Shown here piece by piece: positions 4,278-53,376 of a stretch of DNA of 64,000 nt. The notes beneath the pieces are model-generated. The model was given only the letters and a program-made list of their open reading frames with translations, did not search any database and was not told the DNA's origin. Every line of letters starts with the position of its first letter. Position 1 is the first letter of the stretch. A program made the position numbers and the translations under genes. The stretch is from an uncultured SAR86 cluster bacterium (GTDB lineage: Bacteria > Pseudomonadota > Gammaproteobacteria > Magnimaribacterales > TMED112), in assembly GCA_902535365.1 (NCBI GenBank), contig CACATF010000001.1, positions 194,077 to 258,076 of the forward strand. The letters are read 5' to 3'.

Positions 4278-4354
<77 letters not shown>

Positions 4355-4397
4355 GTAATATAGATTTCCATTCCAAAAAAAACTATCCTTAAACTTA

Positions 4398-4480
4398 AGT
4401 GCAAAGGGGAGGCTATGCCTGAGATCTTTAAAGGAACCCTTTGAACCTGAACCATACAATGATGGCGGAGGAATTGCATG
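4398..4480 (+). promoter_or_regulatory. TPP riboswitch (THI element) controlling the thiamine-uptake operon
   Basis: The conserved TPP-aptamer blocks appear in order: GGGG-AGGC entering a GGC/GCC hairpin (4411-4419), CTGAGA (4419-4424), ACCCTTTGAACCTGA (4436-4450), hairpin CCAT/ATGG (4452-4465), and the 3' block CGGAGGAA (4466-4473). The Shine-Dalgarno GGAGG (4467-4471) is part of that 3' block. The closing helix can form between GTGCAA (4399-4404) and TTGCAT (4474-4479), which includes the first two bases of the start codon at 4478. This predicts that TPP binding blocks translation directly, with no separate expression platform. The helix is inferred by eye. Confidence 0.9.
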
Positions 4481-6565
4481 AATAACATCATATATTGTCT
4501 ATATATTCTCGTTCTACTAGTGTCTTCAAGCATATATGCTGAAGAAGTTGAAGAAATAATCATTAAAGCAGACTGGCGCGAAGCACCTATTACAGACGGT
4601 GATACAAGCACCTTTGTGTTAAGTGACAATGAAATCAAAGCACAACCAATAAAACATTTTGAGAACTTGTCGTATCTTATCCCAAATTTAAATTTTGCTG
4701 CAAGTGATTCAAGGGCTAGGTATTTTCAAATTAGAGGTATAGGTGAAAGATCAGGTTATCTTGGTACACCTAACTCTTCTGTTGGTTTTTTAATTGATGA
4801 TGTTGATTACTCAGGGCAAGGTGGTATCGCTACTTTGTTTGATGTCGATCAAATTGAAGTCATTAGAGGTCCACAGGCATCAAGAATTGGTGCCAATGCT
4901 CTTGCTGGGCTAATTTACATTAAAACAAAAGAACCAACGGAAGAATTTGAAGCTAGTTCAGAAATAAATCTTGGATCTTATAACACTCAAAGTGCTGGCA
5001 TGGCATTAAGTGGACCAGTGACAAAAAATAAAGACGTTAAATTTCGTTTTGTTGTTCGTCAGGATCAGTCCGATGGATTTCGTAAAAATTTGTTTTTAAA
5101 TAAATCAGATACATCTAGAAAAGATGAATTAACCCTTAGATTAAAAATTGATTTTGAACTATCAGAAACAAGTAACAGCAAACTACTTTTGAGTTCTGTC
5201 GATATGGATGATCCTGCAGATATATGGACCATAGACAATTCACTCAATACATTGTCAGACAGACCAGGCATGGACTCACAGAAAACTGATACGCTGGGCT
5301 ACAAATACTTTAAAAAATTTGATCAGTTTGAATTGCAAAGCTTCACAAGTACCACTGATACATTTGTAGTATTTAGTTATGATGCAGATTGGGGAAATTC
5401 TGAATCCCATGCTCCTTATACTTACGACTATTTTTCAGAGACCTTGCGAGATAGGCAATCATTTAATCAAGAGTTTAGGTTGGTTTCCAATTCAAATAAT
5501 CTGCCCTTCAGTTGGGTATTGGGTACAACATTTCTATCGCTCGATGAAACAAATGATAGGCAAGATGATGGAATATATGGAGATCCCTCTGATCCATTTG
5601 GGCCGTATGAAAGCCTAACCATATCGAGCAGTGATTACAGCTCTAATAATTTATCTTTTTTTGGAAACATTGATTATGAGCTAGCTAAAGATTTAGTTAT
5701 TTCATTGGGGATAAGAGCAGAAGAATGGAAAGCCAAATATTCAGATACTAATAATGAAAACTTTAATCTTTCCAATGATATGTTTGGAGGCAAGGTATCT
5801 GTGAGTTATCTGATGGAGAACATTGGAAATGCATATTTAAGTTACGCGAAGGGTTATAAACAAGGGGGATTTAACGTAGGCCTAGGACTATTAGGACAAG
5901 TAGATCCAAATGAGCTTGAATATGACCCTGAATATTTAACAAATTATGAACTAGGCATTAATTCAAAGATCAGTGATTTTACAGATTTGAGCTTTAATAT
6001 TTTTTACTCCCAGAGAGAGGATCAGCAGGTATTAATTTCAACACAAGTTGACCCAAATGACCCCAACACTTTTGTCTATTTAACTCAAAATGCCGCAGAG
6101 GGCCTGAATTATGGGTTTGAAGGATCAATCGATACGCAATTAAATGACGCATTGTCACTATTCCTAAATCTGGGGTATCTGGAGACCGAAATCAAAAATT
6201 GGGCTTCAAGACCTGATATTGAGGGGAGAGAACAAGCACACGCACCAAAGTATAGTTTTTCTACTGGAGTAGAATATTATTTCCAAGAAAATACTTCATT
6301 TGAAATTAACTTCTTAGGTAAAAGTGGTTTCTACTATTCAGATTCACATAACAATAAGTCTGACTCATACGTTTTAACAAATGCAGCTCTTCGTCATAGC
6401 GTTGATAACTGGGTAATTGATGTATGGGTGCAAAATCTATTCGATGAATATTACTCAACAAGAGGGTTCTTTTTTGGAAATGAAGCGCCTGACTTTATTG
6501 ATACTCTTTATAGAAGACACGGGGATCCAAGACACTTTGGGTTGTCTGTAAGATATGATTTCTGA
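4478..6565 (+). CDS. TonB-dependent receptor, probable thiamine outer-membrane transporter
   Basis: This 695-residue receptor has a signal peptide (about 1-21), a plug domain with R-G-I-G (around residue 83) and the I-E-V-I-R-G-P-Q-A-S motif, and a 22-strand-type barrel ending R-Y-D-F. No clear TonB box was identified, although E-E-I-I-I-K just after the signal is a candidate. Position directly after a TPP riboswitch and overlap by 11 nt with a PnuC-type transporter indicate import of thiamine or a thiamine derivative. THI-element-regulated receptors of this kind are known in other Gram-negative bacteria. The start is set by GGAGG 6 nt upstream inside the aptamer. Confidence 0.88.
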   Translation: MNNIIYCLYILVLLVSSSIYAEEVEEIIIKADWREAPITDGDTSTFVLSDNEIKAQPIKHFENLSYLIPNLNFAASDSRARYFQIRGIGERSGYLGTPNSSVGFLIDDVDYSGQGGIATLFDVDQIEVIRGPQASRIGANALAGLIYIKTKEPTEEFEASSEINLGSYNTQSAGMALSGPVTKNKDVKFRFVVRQDQSDGFRKNLFLNKSDTSRKDELTLRLKIDFELSETSNSKLLLSSVDMDDPADIWTIDNSLNTLSDRPGMDSQKTDTLGYKYFKKFDQFELQSFTSTTDTFVVFSYDADWGNSESHAPYTYDYFSETLRDRQSFNQEFRLVSNSNNLPFSWVLGTTFLSLDETNDRQDDGIYGDPSDPFGPYESLTISSSDYSSNNLSFFGNIDYELAKDLVISLGIRAEEWKAKYSDTNNENFNLSNDMFGGKVSVSYLMENIGNAYLSYAKGYKQGGFNVGLGLLGQVDPNELEYDPEYLTNYELGINSKISDFTDLSFNIFYSQREDQQVLISTQVDPNDPNTFVYLTQNAAEGLNYGFEGSIDTQLNDALSLFLNLGYLETEIKNWASRPDIEGREQAHAPKYSFSTGVEYYFQENTSFEINFLGKSGFYYSDSHNNKSDSYVLTNAALRHSVDNWVIDVWVQNLFDEYYSTRGFFFGNEAPDFIDTLYRRHGDPRHFGLSVRYDF

Positions 6566-7136
6566 TCTATTAAATTCAATATGGTTTGAAGTCTTTGCAG
6601 CATTCTTGGCCATAACATATTTGGTTTTAGCAATGCAGCAAGATATTAGGTGTTGGATAGCATGGATCATAAGTTCAGTCATGTATTTCTTTGTCATGCT
6701 TACAGCTGGACTGGTAATGGAGGCTGCCCTTCAAATCTTTTATTTAATTATGGGGCTATATGGATGGAGTCAATGGAAGCGTAAAGCATCATCTCAAAGT
6801 TCAAATATTAAAACATGGACTTTGCGGCAACATTTTTCTGCACTAAGTCTGCTTTTTGTGGCTGTTGTTTGTTTTGGCTACCTGCTTACAGCAAATACAA
6901 ATGCTGTATCACCATATATCGACTCATTTACAACATGGGGAGCCATCTTAGCTACCTATATGGTTGCAAAAAAAGTGCTTGAGAATTGGATCTATTGGTT
7001 CGTAGTTGATTTTGTATCTGTGTTCCTATTCTTGAGCAGAGAGCTTTATCCAACTGCTATTTTATTTGTTATATATTTAATAATTATTGTATTTGGCTAT
7101 AAGGCTTGGTTGAAATCAATGAGTACGCATGAGTAA
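6555..7136 (+). CDS. pnuT: PnuC-family transporter, probable thiamine transporter PnuT
   Basis: This 193-residue inner-membrane protein has about seven hydrophobic helices. Two PnuC-family signatures are clear: Y-G-W-S-Q-W-K-R near residue 75 and the segment E-N-W-I-Y-W-F-V-V-D near residue 150. PnuC proteins import nicotinamide riboside. PnuT relatives, often under TPP riboswitches, import thiamine by facilitated diffusion with trapping by phosphorylation. The gene overlaps the receptor by 11 nt and the kinase by 8 nt, so all three should be co-translated. Specificity for thiamine rather than nicotinamide riboside is inferred from the riboswitch and neighbours. Confidence 0.87.
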   Translation: MISDLLNSIWFEVFAAFLAITYLVLAMQQDIRCWIAWIISSVMYFFVMLTAGLVMEAALQIFYLIMGLYGWSQWKRKASSQSSNIKTWTLRQHFSALSLLFVAVVCFGYLLTANTNAVSPYIDSFTTWGAILATYMVAKKVLENWIYWFVVDFVSVFLFLSRELYPTAILFVIYLIIIVFGYKAWLKSMSTHE

Positions 7137-7932
7137 TATTGAGAATTTTCTTAACACAGCTAAAAAAGATATTGCTTTAATAAAAACTATTCAGAAAACA
7201 AAATTTTCAGAGGTTTATGAGTGCAGGTTAGATGGTAAGGATGCAGTTCTCAAAATTAAAACGGACTGTACCTTTGAAAACGAGATTGGTGTTGAAGAAA
7301 TAATTGTTGATCAACTTCATAAACTTAATTTAGCACCGCAGATTCTACATGCTGATACGGAAAAAAAAGTAGTGATATACGAAAAAGTGGTTGGTTCTGA
7401 TTTGAGCACAGTTTCTAAAGCAAACATTATCTCTAAATGCGCAAAGCAGCTTAAAAAACTTCATAACTCAAATATTGTTTGTGACGATTGTGGTTCATTC
7501 GAGAACAAAATTAAGAAATATGAGCATGCCATTGCTCAAAACTCTCCAAACTCATTATGTCGAAGTGCATTCAAGTTTATTTATGAGTTAGTAGCAAGGG
7601 ATAAACATCAAGTGTTTTGTCATAATGATTTGAACTTATCCAACATAATGTATTCAGATGATATTTTTTTCATTGATTGGGATTATGCCGGTTTCAATCA
7701 TCCTTATTTTGACCTCGCTCTACTATTCAATGCTATGAATTTAACAAGCAATGAAGAATATAACTTCTTAAGCATCTATGCCGATCAGGAAAATGATATT
7801 GATCACGAATTGTTAAAAGAATATAAAAAAATGTCTTTGTACGTTGAATACCTATGGATTGTTGTAACATCTAGCCAAGAAAACCCCAAATACGTCACTC
7901 GTTTTGATGAGTTAAGCGCTCTTCTTCGATAG
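7129..7932 (+). CDS. Aminoglycoside/choline kinase-fold protein, probable thiamine kinase
   Basis: This 267-residue protein has the APH/choline-kinase fold: catalytic loop H165-N166-D167 followed by N172, and the metal-binding I-D-W-D-Y-A-G motif at about 182-188. ThiK (YcfN) of E. coli belongs to this fold and phosphorylates thiamine to thiamine monophosphate. As the last gene of a riboswitch-controlled thiamine-uptake operon, it would trap imported thiamine and supply ThiL (encoded at 50625-51515) with substrate. Choline, ethanolamine or hydroxyethylthiazole kinase are alternatives that sequence alone cannot exclude. Confidence 0.8.
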   Translation: MSNIENFLNTAKKDIALIKTIQKTKFSEVYECRLDGKDAVLKIKTDCTFENEIGVEEIIVDQLHKLNLAPQILHADTEKKVVIYEKVVGSDLSTVSKANIISKCAKQLKKLHNSNIVCDDCGSFENKIKKYEHAIAQNSPNSLCRSAFKFIYELVARDKHQVFCHNDLNLSNIMYSDDIFFIDWDYAGFNHPYFDLALLFNAMNLTSNEEYNFLSIYADQENDIDHELLKEYKKMSLYVEYLWIVVTSSQENPKYVTRFDELSALLR

Positions 7933-10147: not shown

Positions 10148-12361
10148 ATGAAAAAACATCATATTTTAATTTTAATACTAAGCATTTCGAGCTTGTCACA
10201 TGCTCAAGATGTTGAAGAAGTTGTAACTTCTGCTCTTGCAGACCCATCGCAAATTGAAAATCCACTTCACTTGGTTAAAAGCGTTGATTTGGAGTCAGAG
10301 CCAACCACTAGTTTAGGCGAAGCTTTAGATAATTTAGCAGGAGTGGGTTCTGCTGACTATGGTGCTGCTATTGGCCAACCAATTATCAGAGGTCTATCTG
10401 GCGCACGAATAAAAGTACTAAATAACGGTTTAGTTGTTAGAGATGTTTCAGGCATTGGTGCTGATCACCCAAATGACATAGATCTTAGCAATGCTACACA
10501 GGTCGAAGTAGTTAGAGGTCCATCTTCATTGCTTTATGCAAATGGAACCATTGGTGGAATTATAAATATTGTCGACAATTCAATTGCAAAAACCGATTTT
10601 GATGGTTTCTCTGGAAGTCTTGGTTATGAAATGCAGGAGGTCAATGATGGCAGTGTTTCAACCTATAACTTTCAGCACAACGTTGCCGGTCTTAACTTTT
10701 ATCTAAGTGGGTTAGATTCCGATTTTGAAAATTACGTAACTCCGAGAGGTTCTGTTATTGAAGACGGGATGAGAACTGATGAAAGTATCGTAATGAATTC
10801 TGATTCAGCTGCTGAAACAGGGAAGTTTGGTGTTTCTAAAACTGGTGATTGGGGCTACATAGGCATGTCATTATCATCTGCTGAACGTGTGCATGGCATA
10901 CCTTTTCATGGCGAAGAACATGGGCATGATGAGCATCATGATGATGATCATGAAACTATGGATGAAGACGAATATGAAGGTGAAGAGCATGATGAGCATG
11001 AAGGTGAAAGAATATTTGCTATGACTGATTCTGATATCTTCACTTTGCAGGGCTCGTTGAACTTAGGGAATGGTTTAGTAAACAAAGTTGATTACTTCTT
11101 AACATCTTCTGATTATTCATTGATGGAGCAACATGCTGAAGAGCATGGTGAAGAGCATCACGACGATGAAGAGCACGAAGGCGAGGATCATGAAGGCGAA
11201 GATCATGATGAGCATGAAGGTCATAGCGAAGAACCAACACTATTCACAAATGATGCAACAGAATTTGGAATGATTTTTGACCTTTCAAATGATAAACGTA
11301 CTCAAAAAATATCCATGAATTTCGCTGAAGAGGAAATGGCAATTGTTGGCGAGGAAGCATTCATGAGACCAACAATGAGCGAAGAATTTACTATTGGTTA
11401 TTTTATGAGCCAAGATATCGGTGCTGCACATCTTGATTTTGGAATCAGATTTGATGACATCACAAGAGATGGTTCTCTTGCTGAAATGCATCATGATGAT
11501 GATCATGAAACCATGGATGAAGACGATCATGAGGGTGAAGTAGAAATTGAAAATTATAGTTTCAATTACTCAACAACAAACTATTCTTTACAAGTTTCCC
11601 AGGGCTTAACAGATAACTTATCTGTTGTATTAAGCGCTACTAGTGCTGAAAGAGCTCCAGGAGCACAAGAATTATTCATGAATGGTCCGCATTTAGCTAC
11701 AAGACGATTTGAAGTTGGAAATGTAAATCTTAATCCAGAAAAATCTAATAACTTAGATATGACATTGAATTATGAAGCTGGCAATGTCTTTGCTAAATTC
11801 ACGTCTTATACCAATAATGTGGATGATTACATCTACTTGATGGATGAGACAGAGGAAGACCATGAAGAACATGAAGAAGAGCATAATCATGGTGGGCTTA
11901 CATTAGCAGAGTATCTGCAAAATGATGCTAAGTTCACTGGTTATGAATTTGAATTAGGTAATAGCTTTCAATTAGAGAATGGCACACTTACTGCTACTGT
12001 CGGCTTAGATGCTGTTGAAGGTAAGTTTAAAGATTCAAAAATGTTTGTGCCTCGCATGATGCCAAAACGAAGATTTATGAGTCTTGATTATGTTTCAGGT
12101 GATTACTCTGCTGGAATTTCCTATAAAGAAGTCCAACCTCAAGATAATGTAGCAGAAGGTGAAACTGGAACTGATGGGTATAGAATGCTAGATCTTGATG
12201 CCTCTAAATCTTATGACTTAGGCGATGGCGTAACATTCAGATCATCTATATTCATTAAAAACCTGCTTGATGAAACAGCTAGAAACCATACTTCATTTGT
12301 AAAAAATGAGGTTCCACTAGCTGGCAGAAATGTTGGTTTCAAATTTAGAATTACTTTCTAA
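10148..12361 (+). CDS. Histidine/acid-rich TonB-dependent receptor, probable zinc transporter (ZnuD-like)
   Basis: This 737-residue receptor has a signal peptide (about 1-19), a plug with R-G-L-S-G-A-R-I-K-V-L and V-E-V-V-R-G-P-S-S-L-L-Y, and a barrel ending R-I-T-F. Four extracellular-loop inserts are extremely rich in His, Asp and Glu (around residues 258-285, 325-363, 447-463, 574-585). Such loops are the hallmark of the zinc receptor ZnuD and relatives. The gene has the strongest Shine-Dalgarno in the region (AAGGAGG). A MerC-like gene follows. Zinc is the best guess; copper, nickel or heme cannot be excluded. No Zur box was recognised upstream. Confidence 0.88.
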   Translation: MKKHHILILILSISSLSHAQDVEEVVTSALADPSQIENPLHLVKSVDLESEPTTSLGEALDNLAGVGSADYGAAIGQPIIRGLSGARIKVLNNGLVVRDVSGIGADHPNDIDLSNATQVEVVRGPSSLLYANGTIGGIINIVDNSIAKTDFDGFSGSLGYEMQEVNDGSVSTYNFQHNVAGLNFYLSGLDSDFENYVTPRGSVIEDGMRTDESIVMNSDSAAETGKFGVSKTGDWGYIGMSLSSAERVHGIPFHGEEHGHDEHHDDDHETMDEDEYEGEEHDEHEGERIFAMTDSDIFTLQGSLNLGNGLVNKVDYFLTSSDYSLMEQHAEEHGEEHHDDEEHEGEDHEGEDHDEHEGHSEEPTLFTNDATEFGMIFDLSNDKRTQKISMNFAEEEMAIVGEEAFMRPTMSEEFTIGYFMSQDIGAAHLDFGIRFDDITRDGSLAEMHHDDDHETMDEDDHEGEVEIENYSFNYSTTNYSLQVSQGLTDNLSVVLSATSAERAPGAQELFMNGPHLATRRFEVGNVNLNPEKSNNLDMTLNYEAGNVFAKFTSYTNNVDDYIYLMDETEEDHEEHEEEHNHGGLTLAEYLQNDAKFTGYEFELGNSFQLENGTLTATVGLDAVEGKFKDSKMFVPRMMPKRRFMSLDYVSGDYSAGISYKEVQPQDNVAEGETGTDGYRMLDLDASKSYDLGDGVTFRSSIFIKNLLDETARNHTSFVKNEVPLAGRNVGFKFRITF
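10933..10971 (+). repeat. 39-bp in-gene direct repeat, copy 1 (copy 2 at 11488-11526)
   Basis: The 39 bp at 10933-10971 recur at 11488-11526 with one synonymous T/C change. Both encode the His/Asp/Glu-rich H-H-D-D-D-H-E-T-M-D-E-D block in two different loops of the same receptor, 185 codons apart. This is an internal duplication of a metal-binding module, not a CRISPR or mobile element. Confidence 0.85.
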
Positions 12362-49434: not shown

Positions 49435-50625
49435 ATGAAAAACGTAGTAATAGTCGATAGTGTAAGAACAGGCTTAGCAAAATCATTTAGAGGCACATTC
49501 AATATGACTAGGGGTGATGACATGATCACTCATTTAATTGATGCAATGCTAGATAGAAATCCAAACTTACCAGCAGATGCTGTTGAAGATGTAATCATGG
49601 GTTGTGGGAACCCAGAGGGGGCAACTGGACATAATATTGGGCGTAATGCAGTTGTTTTATCAAAACTTCCTTTAACAGTTGGTGGGACTACAGTAAATAG
49701 GTATTGCTCATCCGGTCTTCAAACAATTTCTATGGCAGCAGGACAAATCATGGCTGGGTGTTACGACACCGTTATTGCAGGTGGCGTTGAATCAATTAGT
49801 ATGGTTCAGCCAAAAATGAATCTTGATAATTTTGTAAATCCGAAGATCAATGAAAACAATCCTGGTATTTATTTTCCAATGGGCACAACCGCAGAAGTTG
49901 TTGCTAAAAGATATAACGTCTCCAGAGAATCGCAGGATGAGTACTCCTTGCAAAGTCAATTAAGAACTGCAGAAGCTCAAGAAGCTGGCAGATACGACGA
50001 TGAAATTATACCGATGAAAACCCAAATGCTTTTAACAAATAAAGAGACAGGGGAGCAAAAAGTAGTTGATGCAGAATGCGTTAAAGATGAGTGCAATAGG
50101 CCTACAACTACACTCGAGGGTTTGGCCGGACTTAAGCCAGTCTTTGATGAAAATGGGAGCGTAACAGCTGGTAATTCATCACAGATGTCTGACGGAGCAT
50201 CTATTACTCTAGTGATGTCAGAAGAAAAAGCTTTAGAACTAGGCTTAAAACCAAAAGCTTACTTCAGAGGCTTCACAACTGTTGGCTGCAACCCAGATGA
50301 GATGGGAATTGGCCCAGTTTTTGCAATCCCAAAACTGTTAGCACAAAATAATCTTAGTATTGAAGATATTGGCCTGTGGGAGCTAAATGAAGCTTTTGCA
50401 GTTCAAGTTGTTTATTGTCGAGATGAGCTTGGCATACCAATGGATAAATTAAATGTTGACGGTGGTTCTATTGCAATTGGCCATCCTTATGGAATGACTG
50501 GCTCAAGACTAACAGGACATCTGGTAAGAGAGCTTCAAAATAGAGATCAACAATTTGGTGTTGTTACTATGTGTGTAGGTGGAGGTATGGGAGCAGCTGG
50601 TCTGTTTGAAAGATATCCATCCTAG
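49435..50625 (+). CDS. Acetyl-CoA C-acyltransferase (thiolase)
   Basis: This 396-residue thiolase has catalytic C91 in N-R-Y-C-S-S-G-L-Q, G-G-V-E-S-I-S-M, N-E-A-F-A-V-Q, G-H-P-Y-G-M-T-G-S-R with the active His, and M-C-V-G-G-G-M-G-A-A with the second Cys. It either cleaves 3-ketoacyl-CoA in beta-oxidation (FadA/FadI type) or condenses acetyl-CoA; motif reading cannot decide. CCGGAGG supports the ATG. There is no fadB partner beside it; thiL starts at its stop codon (1-nt overlap). Confidence 0.93.
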   Translation: MKNVVIVDSVRTGLAKSFRGTFNMTRGDDMITHLIDAMLDRNPNLPADAVEDVIMGCGNPEGATGHNIGRNAVVLSKLPLTVGGTTVNRYCSSGLQTISMAAGQIMAGCYDTVIAGGVESISMVQPKMNLDNFVNPKINENNPGIYFPMGTTAEVVAKRYNVSRESQDEYSLQSQLRTAEAQEAGRYDDEIIPMKTQMLLTNKETGEQKVVDAECVKDECNRPTTTLEGLAGLKPVFDENGSVTAGNSSQMSDGASITLVMSEEKALELGLKPKAYFRGFTTVGCNPDEMGIGPVFAIPKLLAQNNLSIEDIGLWELNEAFAVQVVYCRDELGIPMDKLNVDGGSIAIGHPYGMTGSRLTGHLVRELQNRDQQFGVVTMCVGGGMGAAGLFERYPS

Positions 50626-51515
50626 TGAATACAGAAACACATTATATTCAACAATATCTAGCACCTTTATACACACAATCATCGACCTATCCATTAAAAA
50701 TAGGCGACGATTGTGCTGTTATAGATGCTAAAGATAAGATTCTAACTTCGGTTGACTCATCAGTTGAAGAACAACACTTCCCAAAAGATTTAAATCCATA
50801 CTATGTAGCTTATCGGTCGGTAGCTGTAGCTATTTCAGACATTTACGCTATGGGAGGCATCCCAGAAAGCTATCTTTTAAGCATCTCGCATCCACAACCA
50901 TCCGATCTTTGGTTTGGAGAGTTTTCAAAAGGTATTGAAAAGGTTAATCAGGACTACAGCTTATCACTGCTGGGTGGAGATATGGTCAAAGGACAATTAG
51001 CTATCACTGTCACAGCATTTGGCAGAGCGCTTGAAAACATATGTGAACGTGCAAATGCTAAGTTAGGCGATAACATTTATTTATCAGGTCCACTTGGGTT
51101 TGGCAAAGCAGGGTTAGAGGGTTACCAGAAAGGTAATAAAGATGAAGCTAGTCAGTATTTAATGCCCCAGCTAATTTCAAATCACATCATTGAAAAATTA
51201 AACCCTATCATGAATGCAGCAATAGATGTTTCTGATGGTCTGATTAAAGATCTTGGAAGGATTTGTTCAGCCTCTGGTGTGGGGGCTGAGATTCTGCTTA
51301 GCAATATTCATCACAATAGTAATCCTAATGATTTAGTTGCAGGGGATGATTATGTTCTATGCTTCACATCATCATCACCCATAGAAAATATTATTAATAT
51401 TGATCAAAATATTCACCACATTGGAAAAATTGTGGAAGGAAACGAAGTATTAGTAGTTGATCTTGAGGGTAGACAGCTTGATTTTAATAAAGACGGTTGG
51501 GATTCTTTCAAATAG
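50625..51515 (+). CDS. thiL: Thiamine-monophosphate kinase
   Basis: This 296-residue enzyme phosphorylates thiamine monophosphate to thiamine pyrophosphate. It has the metal-site I-G-D-D-C-A-V-I, S-V-D-S-S-V-E-E-Q-H-F, A-I-S-D-I-Y-A-M-G-G, G-G-D-M and D-V-S-D-G-L-I-K-D-L-G-R. The start is GTG, overlapping the thiolase stop by 1 nt. It completes the pathway begun by the riboswitch-controlled kinase at 7.1 kb. It overlaps the converging dxs by 8 nt. Confidence 0.93.
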   Translation: MNTETHYIQQYLAPLYTQSSTYPLKIGDDCAVIDAKDKILTSVDSSVEEQHFPKDLNPYYVAYRSVAVAISDIYAMGGIPESYLLSISHPQPSDLWFGEFSKGIEKVNQDYSLSLLGGDMVKGQLAITVTAFGRALENICERANAKLGDNIYLSGPLGFGKAGLEGYQKGNKDEASQYLMPQLISNHIIEKLNPIMNAAIDVSDGLIKDLGRICSASGVGAEILLSNIHHNSNPNDLVAGDDYVLCFTSSSPIENIINIDQNIHHIGKIVEGNEVLVVDLEGRQLDFNKDGWDSFK

Positions 51516-53376
51516 AGTTTGCGAAGCCAATAATTTTTTTACCCAAGGTAACAACGTCAAGTCCATTCATTTCCAAAACTTCATTTCTGCTGCCATGCGC
51601 AGGGAATTTGTCTTCTAGTCCCAAATGCAAGATAGGCTTAAAGATCATATGTGCCGCAAAAAATTCACTGACTGCGCTACCTGCACCACCCACAATTGAA
51701 TGGTCTTCAAGAGTGACAAATGCCTCATAGTTATTGCTTAATTCTAAAAGTAACTGCTCATCAAGAGGCTTCACAAAACGCATATCAACAAGACCAAAAT
51801 TATTTGCTTCAGCGCATTCTGTTACTCTGTCCATTAGTACTCCAAAATTTAAAATGCAAACTTTTTCACCATTACGTATCTTATTGGCTTTTCCCATATT
51901 AAATGCATCATTTTTGTCTTTTATGGCAGCACCAATACCAGAACCCCTTGGGTATCTGATTGCAGCAGGACCATTATGAGTATAACAGGTATTAAGAAGA
52001 CCCCACATTTCATTTTCATCAGATGGAGTAGCTACAACAATATTTGGCACACACCGCATAAAGCTAAGATCAAAGTTGCCTGAATGGGTTGGCCCATCTT
52101 CACCAACAACTCCAGCACGATCGAGCGCAAAAGTAACATCAAGATTCTCAAGACATACGTCATGAATAAATTGATCATATGCACGTTGGAGAAAAGATGA
52201 ATAAATTGCTACTACAGGTTTAGTGCCTCCTAAAGATAGGCCCGCACCAAATGTTACAGAGTGTTGTTCAGCAATTGCAACATCATAAAATCTATCTGGG
52301 TATTGTTTCTCAAAATCAACCATTCCCGAACCTTCTTTCATAGCAGGAGTTATTCCAATTAGTTTGTTATCTAAACTTGCTTTGTAGCATAACCAATCAC
52401 CAAAAATATCTTGAAACTTTGCTTGTTTAACTGCTGGAGTGTTCTCTATTTTTGATATCGCGTGATATTTAATACGCTCATTCTCAGCTGGTTCAAAACC
52501 TGCCCCCTTCTTTGTAATTATATGCAACAAATAAGGTTCTTTTTTTTCGACCATACGTCGAAGAGTTTTGATAAGAAGGGGAATGTCATGCCCATCAATT
52601 GGTCCAATGTAATGAAGGCCCAGATCTTCAAATAGATTGCCTGGCATAACTGCATGCTTAAGACCATCTTTCAGGTTCCGTGATATATGCAAACCACCTG
52701 GTAAATTTTTTAGGACTTTCTTACCGCTTGATTTAAGTTTTTTATATGATTTTGAAGCCCAAACCTTTGCTAAGTAGTCAGATAACCCTCCAGTATTTTT
52801 TGATATGGACATATCATTATCATTCAAAATAATATTTAAATTATTGTCTAGATGTGCAGCATGCATCATGCCTTCAAAGGCTATTCCAGCTGTCATAGCA
52901 CCATCACCAATCACAGAAAAAATATTCCTTTTCGTCGAAAGATGAACATTTGCCTCATTCATGCCTAAGGATGCACTTATTGATGTGCTTGAATGACCAA
53001 CACTCATGGCATCGTATTCAGATTCAGTGATGGAAGGAAAAGCATGAATACCATCTTTTTTTCTCATTAGATGCATCTTCTCTCTTCTACCAGTGAGAAT
53101 TTTATGCGGATATGCCTGATGGCCTGTATCCCAAACAATTTTATCAAATGGCATATCTAACACATAATGCATAGCAATGGTAAGCTCAATAGTTCCCAGC
53201 CCAGCTCCAAAGTGCCCACCAGTCTTACTTACAGAATGTAGAAGGAATTCTCTCAATTCATCAGCCAGTTCAACTAGCTGACCTTCTTCTAACAATTTAA
53301 GATCCTTTGGCGATTCAATATCATTCAGATATTTAAATTCTGGCAGTTTAGTTGGAAATTCCTTAAAGATTTTCAT
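51508..53376 (-). CDS. dxs: 1-deoxy-D-xylulose-5-phosphate synthase
   Basis: This 622-residue TPP-dependent enzyme makes DXP from pyruvate and glyceraldehyde-3-phosphate, the first MEP isoprenoid step. It shows T-G-G-H-F-G-A-G-L-G-T-I-E, D-T-G-H-Q-A-Y-P-H-K, G-D-G-A-M-T-A-G-I-A-F-E-G with the TPP loop, D-R-A-G-V-V-G-E-D-G-P-T-H-S-G and R-Y-P-R-G. It overlaps ispA by 1 nt; order xseB-ispA-dxs is the standard gammaproteobacterial one. Being TPP-dependent, it ties isoprenoid supply to thiamine uptake. Confidence 0.97.
   Translation of the reverse strand: MKIFKEFPTKLPEFKYLNDIESPKDLKLLEEGQLVELADELREFLLHSVSKTGGHFGAGLGTIELTIAMHYVLDMPFDKIVWDTGHQAYPHKILTGRREKMHLMRKKDGIHAFPSITESEYDAMSVGHSSTSISASLGMNEANVHLSTKRNIFSVIGDGAMTAGIAFEGMMHAAHLDNNLNIILNDNDMSISKNTGGLSDYLAKVWASKSYKKLKSSGKKVLKNLPGGLHISRNLKDGLKHAVMPGNLFEDLGLHYIGPIDGHDIPLLIKTLRRMVEKKEPYLLHIITKKGAGFEPAENERIKYHAISKIENTPAVKQAKFQDIFGDWLCYKASLDNKLIGITPAMKEGSGMVDFEKQYPDRFYDVAIAEQHSVTFGAGLSLGGTKPVVAIYSSFLQRAYDQFIHDVCLENLDVTFALDRAGVVGEDGPTHSGNFDLSFMRCVPNIVVATPSDENEMWGLLNTCYTHNGPAAIRYPRGSGIGAAIKDKNDAFNMGKANKIRNGEKVCILNFGVLMDRVTECAEANNFGLVDMRFVKPLDEQLLLELSNNYEAFVTLEDHSIVGGAGSAVSEFFAAHMIFKPILHLGLEDKFPAHGSRNEVLEMNGLDVVTLGKKIIGFANSI

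Follow-up and report, generated by a model that had tools for sequence, protein, structure and literature searches.

Genetic evidence from Bacteroides shows that the receptor and the PnuT carrier encoded by the OMthi-pnuT-tnr3 operon contribute to thiamine uptake (PMC5613172), and SAR86 bacteria are described as vitamin B1 auxotrophs in the available parts of two reports (PMC10881298, PMC12236431). Here, we analyze a stretch of 64,000 nt (the window) from an uncultured SAR86 cluster bacterium (GCA_902535365.1, contig CACATF010000001.1, positions 194,077-258,076, forward strand; GTDB lineage Bacteria; Pseudomonadota; Gammaproteobacteria; Magnimaribacterales; TMED112), in which a thiamine pyrophosphate (TPP) riboswitch is followed by three overlapping genes for a TonB-dependent receptor, a PnuC-family carrier and a kinase. 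The genome holding the window comprises 928 kb and is 87% complete, and gene absences in it rest on family searches; the order-wide survey covered 151 SAR86-order genomes, among which the window's genus and the families f1, f2 and f3 are distinguished. Because the operon carries the riboswitch, because ThiC, ThiE, thiamine pyrophosphokinase (TPK) and ThiP were not found in this genome and ThiL is present, and because the operon and ThiE exclude each other across the order, we consider it likely that the operon is a TPP-repressed thiamine import-and-trap unit of a thiamine-auxotrophic SAR86 bacterium. The features in question are:

4395-4490, + strand: TPP riboswitch aptamer (RF00059, 57.8 bits, E 1e-8, full model)
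4478-6565, + strand: TonB-dependent outer-membrane receptor (omr1/OMthi-like), predicted thiamine receptor (PF07715 and PF00593)
6555-7136, + strand: PnuC-family inner-membrane carrier, predicted PnuT (thiamine facilitator) (PF04973, 161.3 bits, cut-off 27.3)
7129-7932, + strand: APH/choline-kinase-fold kinase, predicted thiamine kinase (PF01636, 63 bits; PF01633, 47 bits)
50625-51515, + strand: ThiL, thiamine-monophosphate kinase, unlinked to the operon (TIGR01379, 218.7 bits, cut-off 184.15)

A riboswitch that holds the first start codon of a predicted thiamine operon

The leader scores above the gathering score of the TPP covariance model RF00059 (54.3 bits), as expected from the initial annotation of a TPP aptamer at this site, with the start now refined to 4395; no second copy was found in the genome. 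In the consensus fold of an alignment of 30 leader sequences, the Shine-Dalgarno sequence GGAGG (4467-4471) lies within P4 and pairs with CCU 4446-4448, positions 4474-4478 form the 3' arm of P1, and U4400 closes P1 by pairing with the first base of the receptor start codon (A4478). The 3' end of the aptamer thus holds both the ribosome-binding site and the start codon of the receptor gene, and riboswitch and first gene overlap. The motif GGCGGAGGAATTGCATG (or a variant ending in TTACATG) is nearly invariant in the leaders of SAR86-order relatives, in which the riboswitch on the operon is conserved. Since space for a separate expression platform is absent, ligand binding should mask the initiation site itself, and the aptamer probably blocks receptor translation directly. 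Covariation lends P1 modest support: both partners are exchanged in a single pair (C-G in 23, U-A in 5 and U-G in 2 of the 30 sequences) and the remaining P1 pairs never or barely vary, so that we do not treat covariation as strong proof of this helix. A tRNA gene (4278-4351) ends 43 nt upstream of the riboswitch; G012 (L076) is arranged alike, and the tRNA was not found in the other scanned cassette loci of the genus (L077, L078).

The three open reading frames (ORFs) overlap by 11 nt and 8 nt, and Pfam matches bear out the initial naming of an outer-membrane receptor, a PnuC-type carrier and an APH-fold kinase. Both the plug and the beta-barrel domain of the receptor exceed their cut-offs, identifying it as TonB-dependent, and the protein shares 33-40% identity with receptors whose genes follow TPP riboswitches in Sulfurovum and Woeseiaceae. 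Within the window it matches a single other ORF (29% identity over 245 residues). A receptor with long His/Asp/Glu-rich stretches is encoded at 10148-12361; its best NCBIfam match is ZnuD (247 bits, below the cut-off of 950). The carrier also exceeds the cut-off of the NCBIfam PnuC model TIGR01528 (76.4 versus 42.45 bits), and thiamine is its predicted substrate by riboswitch context. The receptor-carrier-kinase order is unlikely to be due to chance, because it recurs in relatives in differing genomic neighbourhoods, in several of them, from f1, f2 and f3, with the same 11-nt receptor-carrier overlap; this recurring overlap suggests translational coupling.

Neither ThiC nor ThiE was detected in the window's genome, so that full de novo synthesis, for which the initial annotation had asked for a check, is not seen. 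A family search for ThiP likewise gave no match in this genome, i.e. there is no sign of a ThiBPQ-type transporter, in agreement with the earlier proposal of import without an ABC transporter. TPK (TPK_catalytic) matches none of the 151 SAR86-order genomes, the window's genome included, and matches 7 of 14 control genomes. ThiL acts on thiamine monophosphate (TMP) and converts it to TPP. Without ThiE, TMP for ThiL must come either from thiamine via a thiamine kinase or from imported TMP, and the presence of ThiL without ThiE is the strongest argument for the predicted role of the kinase. In total, the genome shows the pattern of an auxotroph for intact thiamine (ThiC and ThiE absent, ThiL present), and this pattern is repeated in relatives that are up to 97% complete. 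A probable dxs gene (51508-53376; named by sequence), the product of which depends on TPP, converges on thiL, and the two genes share 8 nt at their 3' ends.

Combining these data, we suggest that scarcity of TPP would leave the aptamer open and the Shine-Dalgarno sequence and start codon free, and that receptor, carrier and kinase would then be translated as one coupled unit: (i) the TonB-dependent receptor would take intact thiamine across the outer membrane, (ii) the PnuT-like facilitator would let thiamine equilibrate into the cytoplasm, (iii) the kinase would convert thiamine to TMP, making uptake one-way, and (iv) the unlinked ThiL would convert TMP to TPP. TPP would then close the aptamer, and translation would stop. 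The data in this way support the initial proposal of import across both membranes with trapping as TMP, in which the specificities of receptor and carrier are predicted on the basis of the riboswitch and the Bacteroides genetics (PMC5613172), and the kinase reaction is likewise a prediction.

The kinase and its relatives

H165, D167, N172 and D183 are invariant among 40 aligned kinases, and D167, N172 and D183 represent the LicA-type catalytic Asp/Asn residues. The predicted structure (predicted local distance difference test score 91.4) has an APH/choline-kinase fold, in line with the APH fold named in the initial annotation; the nearest solved structure is that of the choline kinase LicA (Z 22.6, root-mean-square deviation 3.0, 258 aligned residues, 23% identity). 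LicA binds choline via Tyr197, Trp251, Trp254, Tyr268 and Glu213 (PMC4364537). In the sequence alignment, Y186 and W243 of the kinase correspond to Tyr197 and Trp254, whereas Trp251 is replaced by E240 and Glu213 by A202, and the choline-box pair Trp251 and Glu213 is accordingly absent from the kinase. Trp at the first of these positions is found in 0 of 44 thiamine-operon kinases versus 15 of 15 lic-operon kinases, and Glu at the second in 8 of 44 versus 15 of 15.

The SAR86 kinases form one clade separate from LicA, and a topology that holds all thiamine-operon kinases together in a single clade has an approximately unbiased test p of 0.33. Kinase matches in Haemophilus, Pasteurella and Neisseria resemble licA, judged from the sizes of neighbouring genes. 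E. coli ThiK, to which the kinase had initially been compared, shares its fold and superfamily; orthology is not supported, as the kinase stays far below the equivalog cut-off (TIGR02721, 46.6 versus 299.45 bits), BLASTP gives E 2e-4 over 90 residues, and ThiK lies outside the LicA/thiamine-operon group on a long branch. Thiamine and choline both are cations with a hydroxyethyl arm. Given this resemblance, it is plausible from the aligned residues that the kinase and LicA have a common origin and that the pocket has changed since. A kinase 94% identical to that of the window, together with receptor, PnuC and downstream genes, is filed under the metagenome-assembled genome (MAG) of Euryarchaeota archaeon ARS96 (L113, NYXO01000058.1); the contig probably stems from SAR86 and was misassigned or misbinned.

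The order TPP riboswitch, receptor, PnuC and kinase recurs outside SAR86 in two unclassified gammaproteobacterial MAGs, two Woeseiaceae and one Sulfurovum (L161, L165, L169, L182, L174). In two further Sulfurovum loci (L160, L168), the riboswitch is followed by genes for the receptor, ThiB, ThiP, ThiQ and then the kinase; in L160, ThiB exceeds its profile cut-off and ThiP and ThiQ fall slightly below theirs. In a Cellvibrionaceae MAG (L153), the kinase gene lies between a riboswitch-led receptor gene and a riboswitch-led thiC cluster. The kinase thus occurs alongside two different inner-membrane systems for thiamine import, which supports its role, and the Woeseiaceae, other gammaproteobacterial and Sulfurovum loci overturn the initial suggestion of a lineage-specific cassette. 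Small YkoF-like proteins adjoin thiamine receptors in three loci (L083 6225-6470, L153 4722-5000, L174 4721-4975); that of L153 passes Pfam Ykof with 22.1 bits, and those of L083 and L174 look alike and have no match. They are a possible extra thiamine-binding part.

Alternatively, the third gene could encode a choline/ethanolamine-type kinase or another APH enzyme that merely resides in the operon, with thiamine being phosphorylated by another enzyme. The LicA-type nearest solved relatives (profile E 4.7e-25, in addition to the structural match) and the existence of f2 cassettes without the kinase fit this model. Given that the two LicA pocket residues are largely lost in thiamine-operon kinases, that in other genera the genes of related kinases accompany TPP riboswitches, ThiBPQ or thiC, and that TPK as a substitute was not found in the surveyed genomes, we regard it as unlikely and favor a thiamine kinase.

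Making and predicted import of thiamine across the SAR86 order

In the cassette comparison across SAR86-like genomes that had been proposed initially, the carrier is present in 75 of the 151 genomes and ThiC in 42, and the two never co-occur. ThiE exceeds its cut-off in 66 genomes and coincides with the carrier once, in G036, which carries receptor and PnuC. There, ThiE is a remnant consisting of a thiD-like start fused to a thiE tail with stops (C50:59416-59568; L196 1869-2148); it adjoins the same neighbour gene as the intact thiE in the sister genome G117 and is a snapshot of biosynthesis loss. The window's genus divides into 12 cassette-bearing genomes and 9 with ThiE and no ThiC, and no genome has both or neither of cassette and ThiE; in G010 the cassette is divided between contig ends, and in G004 the riboswitch was not found, though carrier and kinase are present. 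In a 60-genome ThiL tree, with G036 coded as lacking ThiE, the three states require 15 changes, and in each of the 7 independent pairs with contrasting cassette states ThiE shows the opposite contrast (p 0.016, the minimum for seven pairs). Fisher tests on the raw genome counts take no account of relatedness and are not to be cited by themselves.

The order is thus split into makers with ThiC and ThiE, genomes with ThiE and no detected ThiC, which presumably need the pyrimidine half, and predicted importers of whole thiamine with the cassette; the latter two states divide a single genus. Because the survey shows makers as well as importers, the published statements that SAR86 is a B1 auxotroph seem to hold for part of the order only. 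In the ThiE-positive, ThiC-negative genomes of the window's genus (G003, G005, G006, G009, G013, G014, G015, G017, G019), a TPP riboswitch was not found, and in G003, G013 and the single-contig G014 a convincing ThiL was not found either.

These distributions bear on two further models. In the first, the operon would salvage breakdown products (hydroxyethylthiazole (HET), hydroxymethylpyrimidine (HMP) or aminopyrimidines) with a ThiM/ThiD-like kinase, and marine bacteria often use HMP-type precursors according to the available part of PMC11452348. Joining the two halves, however, needs ThiE, of which an intact gene is found in no cassette genome, and cassette and ThiE exclude each other; we therefore reject the kinase as a HET/HMP kinase and give this model hardly any credence. 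In the second, the kinase would be a pyrophosphokinase that converts thiamine directly to TPP, and it does occupy the position of Tnr3 in OMthi-pnuT-tnr3 (PMC5613172). Its APH/choline-kinase fold with the monophosphoryl-transfer HxDxxxxN...D residues speaks against this, as does the retention of ThiL in about 69 of the 75 carrier genomes, all counted as without ThiE; keeping ThiL would bring no benefit if thiamine went to TPP in a single reaction. We find this model very improbable and retain phosphorylation to TMP.

In family f2, the carrier is present in 27 of 35 genomes, the kinase is strong in G099 only, and TPK is found in none. The loci L087-L095 combine receptor and PnuC without an adjacent kinase, and 7 of these 9 have a TPP riboswitch over cut-off. 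Since both the kinase next door and TPK are missing, import in f2 must use another enzyme: either another thiamine kinase is present or another vitamer enters. An unlinked APH protein of about 300 aa in genus g5, considered as this kinase, is unsupported; its motif is HGDxxxGN, it is placed apart from the cassette kinases, and in several genomes its gene lies near panB/panC-like genes (named from sequence). Import of TMP or another phosphorylated form, with the kinase being accessory, would explain f2 genomes that have ThiL and the two transport genes and lack the kinase. To our knowledge, however, the PnuC-type carriers characterized so far move unphosphorylated vitamers, and in f1 and f3 the kinase gene has stayed part of the operon, where it often overlaps that of the carrier; TMP import therefore appears to us quite improbable.

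The kinase-less f2 genomes are one of several points that weigh against an import-and-trap unit for thiamine. The nearest characterized sequences of the kinase are choline kinases, a PnuC-family sequence cannot separate thiamine from nicotinamide riboside, and with the window's genome being incomplete the absences lean on relatives. Taking these points into account, we still favor thiamine import and trapping and suggest, with somewhat more confidence than doubt, that (i) the cassette kinases are undescribed non-ThiK thiamine kinases of LicA-like origin without the Trp251/Glu213 part of the pocket, (ii) SAR86 bacteria switch repeatedly between ThiE and cassette import, and (iii) f2 uses a further thiamine kinase.

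SAR86 bacteria are among the most abundant bacteria of the surface ocean. With the survey, a single marker gene would predict which B1 compound a SAR86 genome needs. The kinase offers a concrete candidate for the thiamine-to-TMP step, and the kinase-less f2 raises a clear question.

Relation to known systems

The Bacteroides operon likewise unites TPP riboswitch, TonB-dependent receptor, PnuT carrier and trapping enzyme (PMC5613172). It differs in its third gene, Tnr3 being of the thiamine pyrophosphokinase type and the SAR86 enzyme having the APH fold, and in that B. thetaiotaomicron also synthesizes thiamine (PMC5613172). The omr1 loci in SAR86 MAGs share the receptor type and a thiamine diphosphate (TDP) riboswitch; the available part of that report names omr1 and the riboswitch and does not mention PnuT, the kinase or the exclusion of ThiE (PMC10881298). 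E. coli ThiK (YcfN) belongs to the same APH superfamily and converts thiamine to TMP, the reaction predicted for the kinase here, and differs in sequence and tree position. LicA of S. pneumoniae (4R77/4R7B; PMC4364537) shares its catalytic residues and two of its four choline-box aromatics with the kinase, and is set apart by Trp251 and Glu213, by its separate clade and by a licABCD-like neighbourhood in place of thiamine genes. The Woeseiaceae and Sulfurovum loci have the same riboswitch and gene order, with kinases about 25% identical to the window's over most of their length and, in the Sulfurovum locus L174, the extra small YkoF-like gene. Related gene clusters may already be mentioned in the thiamin genomics of Rodionov et al. 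2002. Operons for receptor, PnuT and trapping enzyme under a TPP riboswitch are already known from Bacteroides, as are riboswitch-linked receptors in SAR86 from the available part of PMC10881298; new, as far as the accessible literature goes, are the trapping enzyme of the APH fold with its predicted altered pocket and the repeated mutual exclusion of cassette and ThiE.

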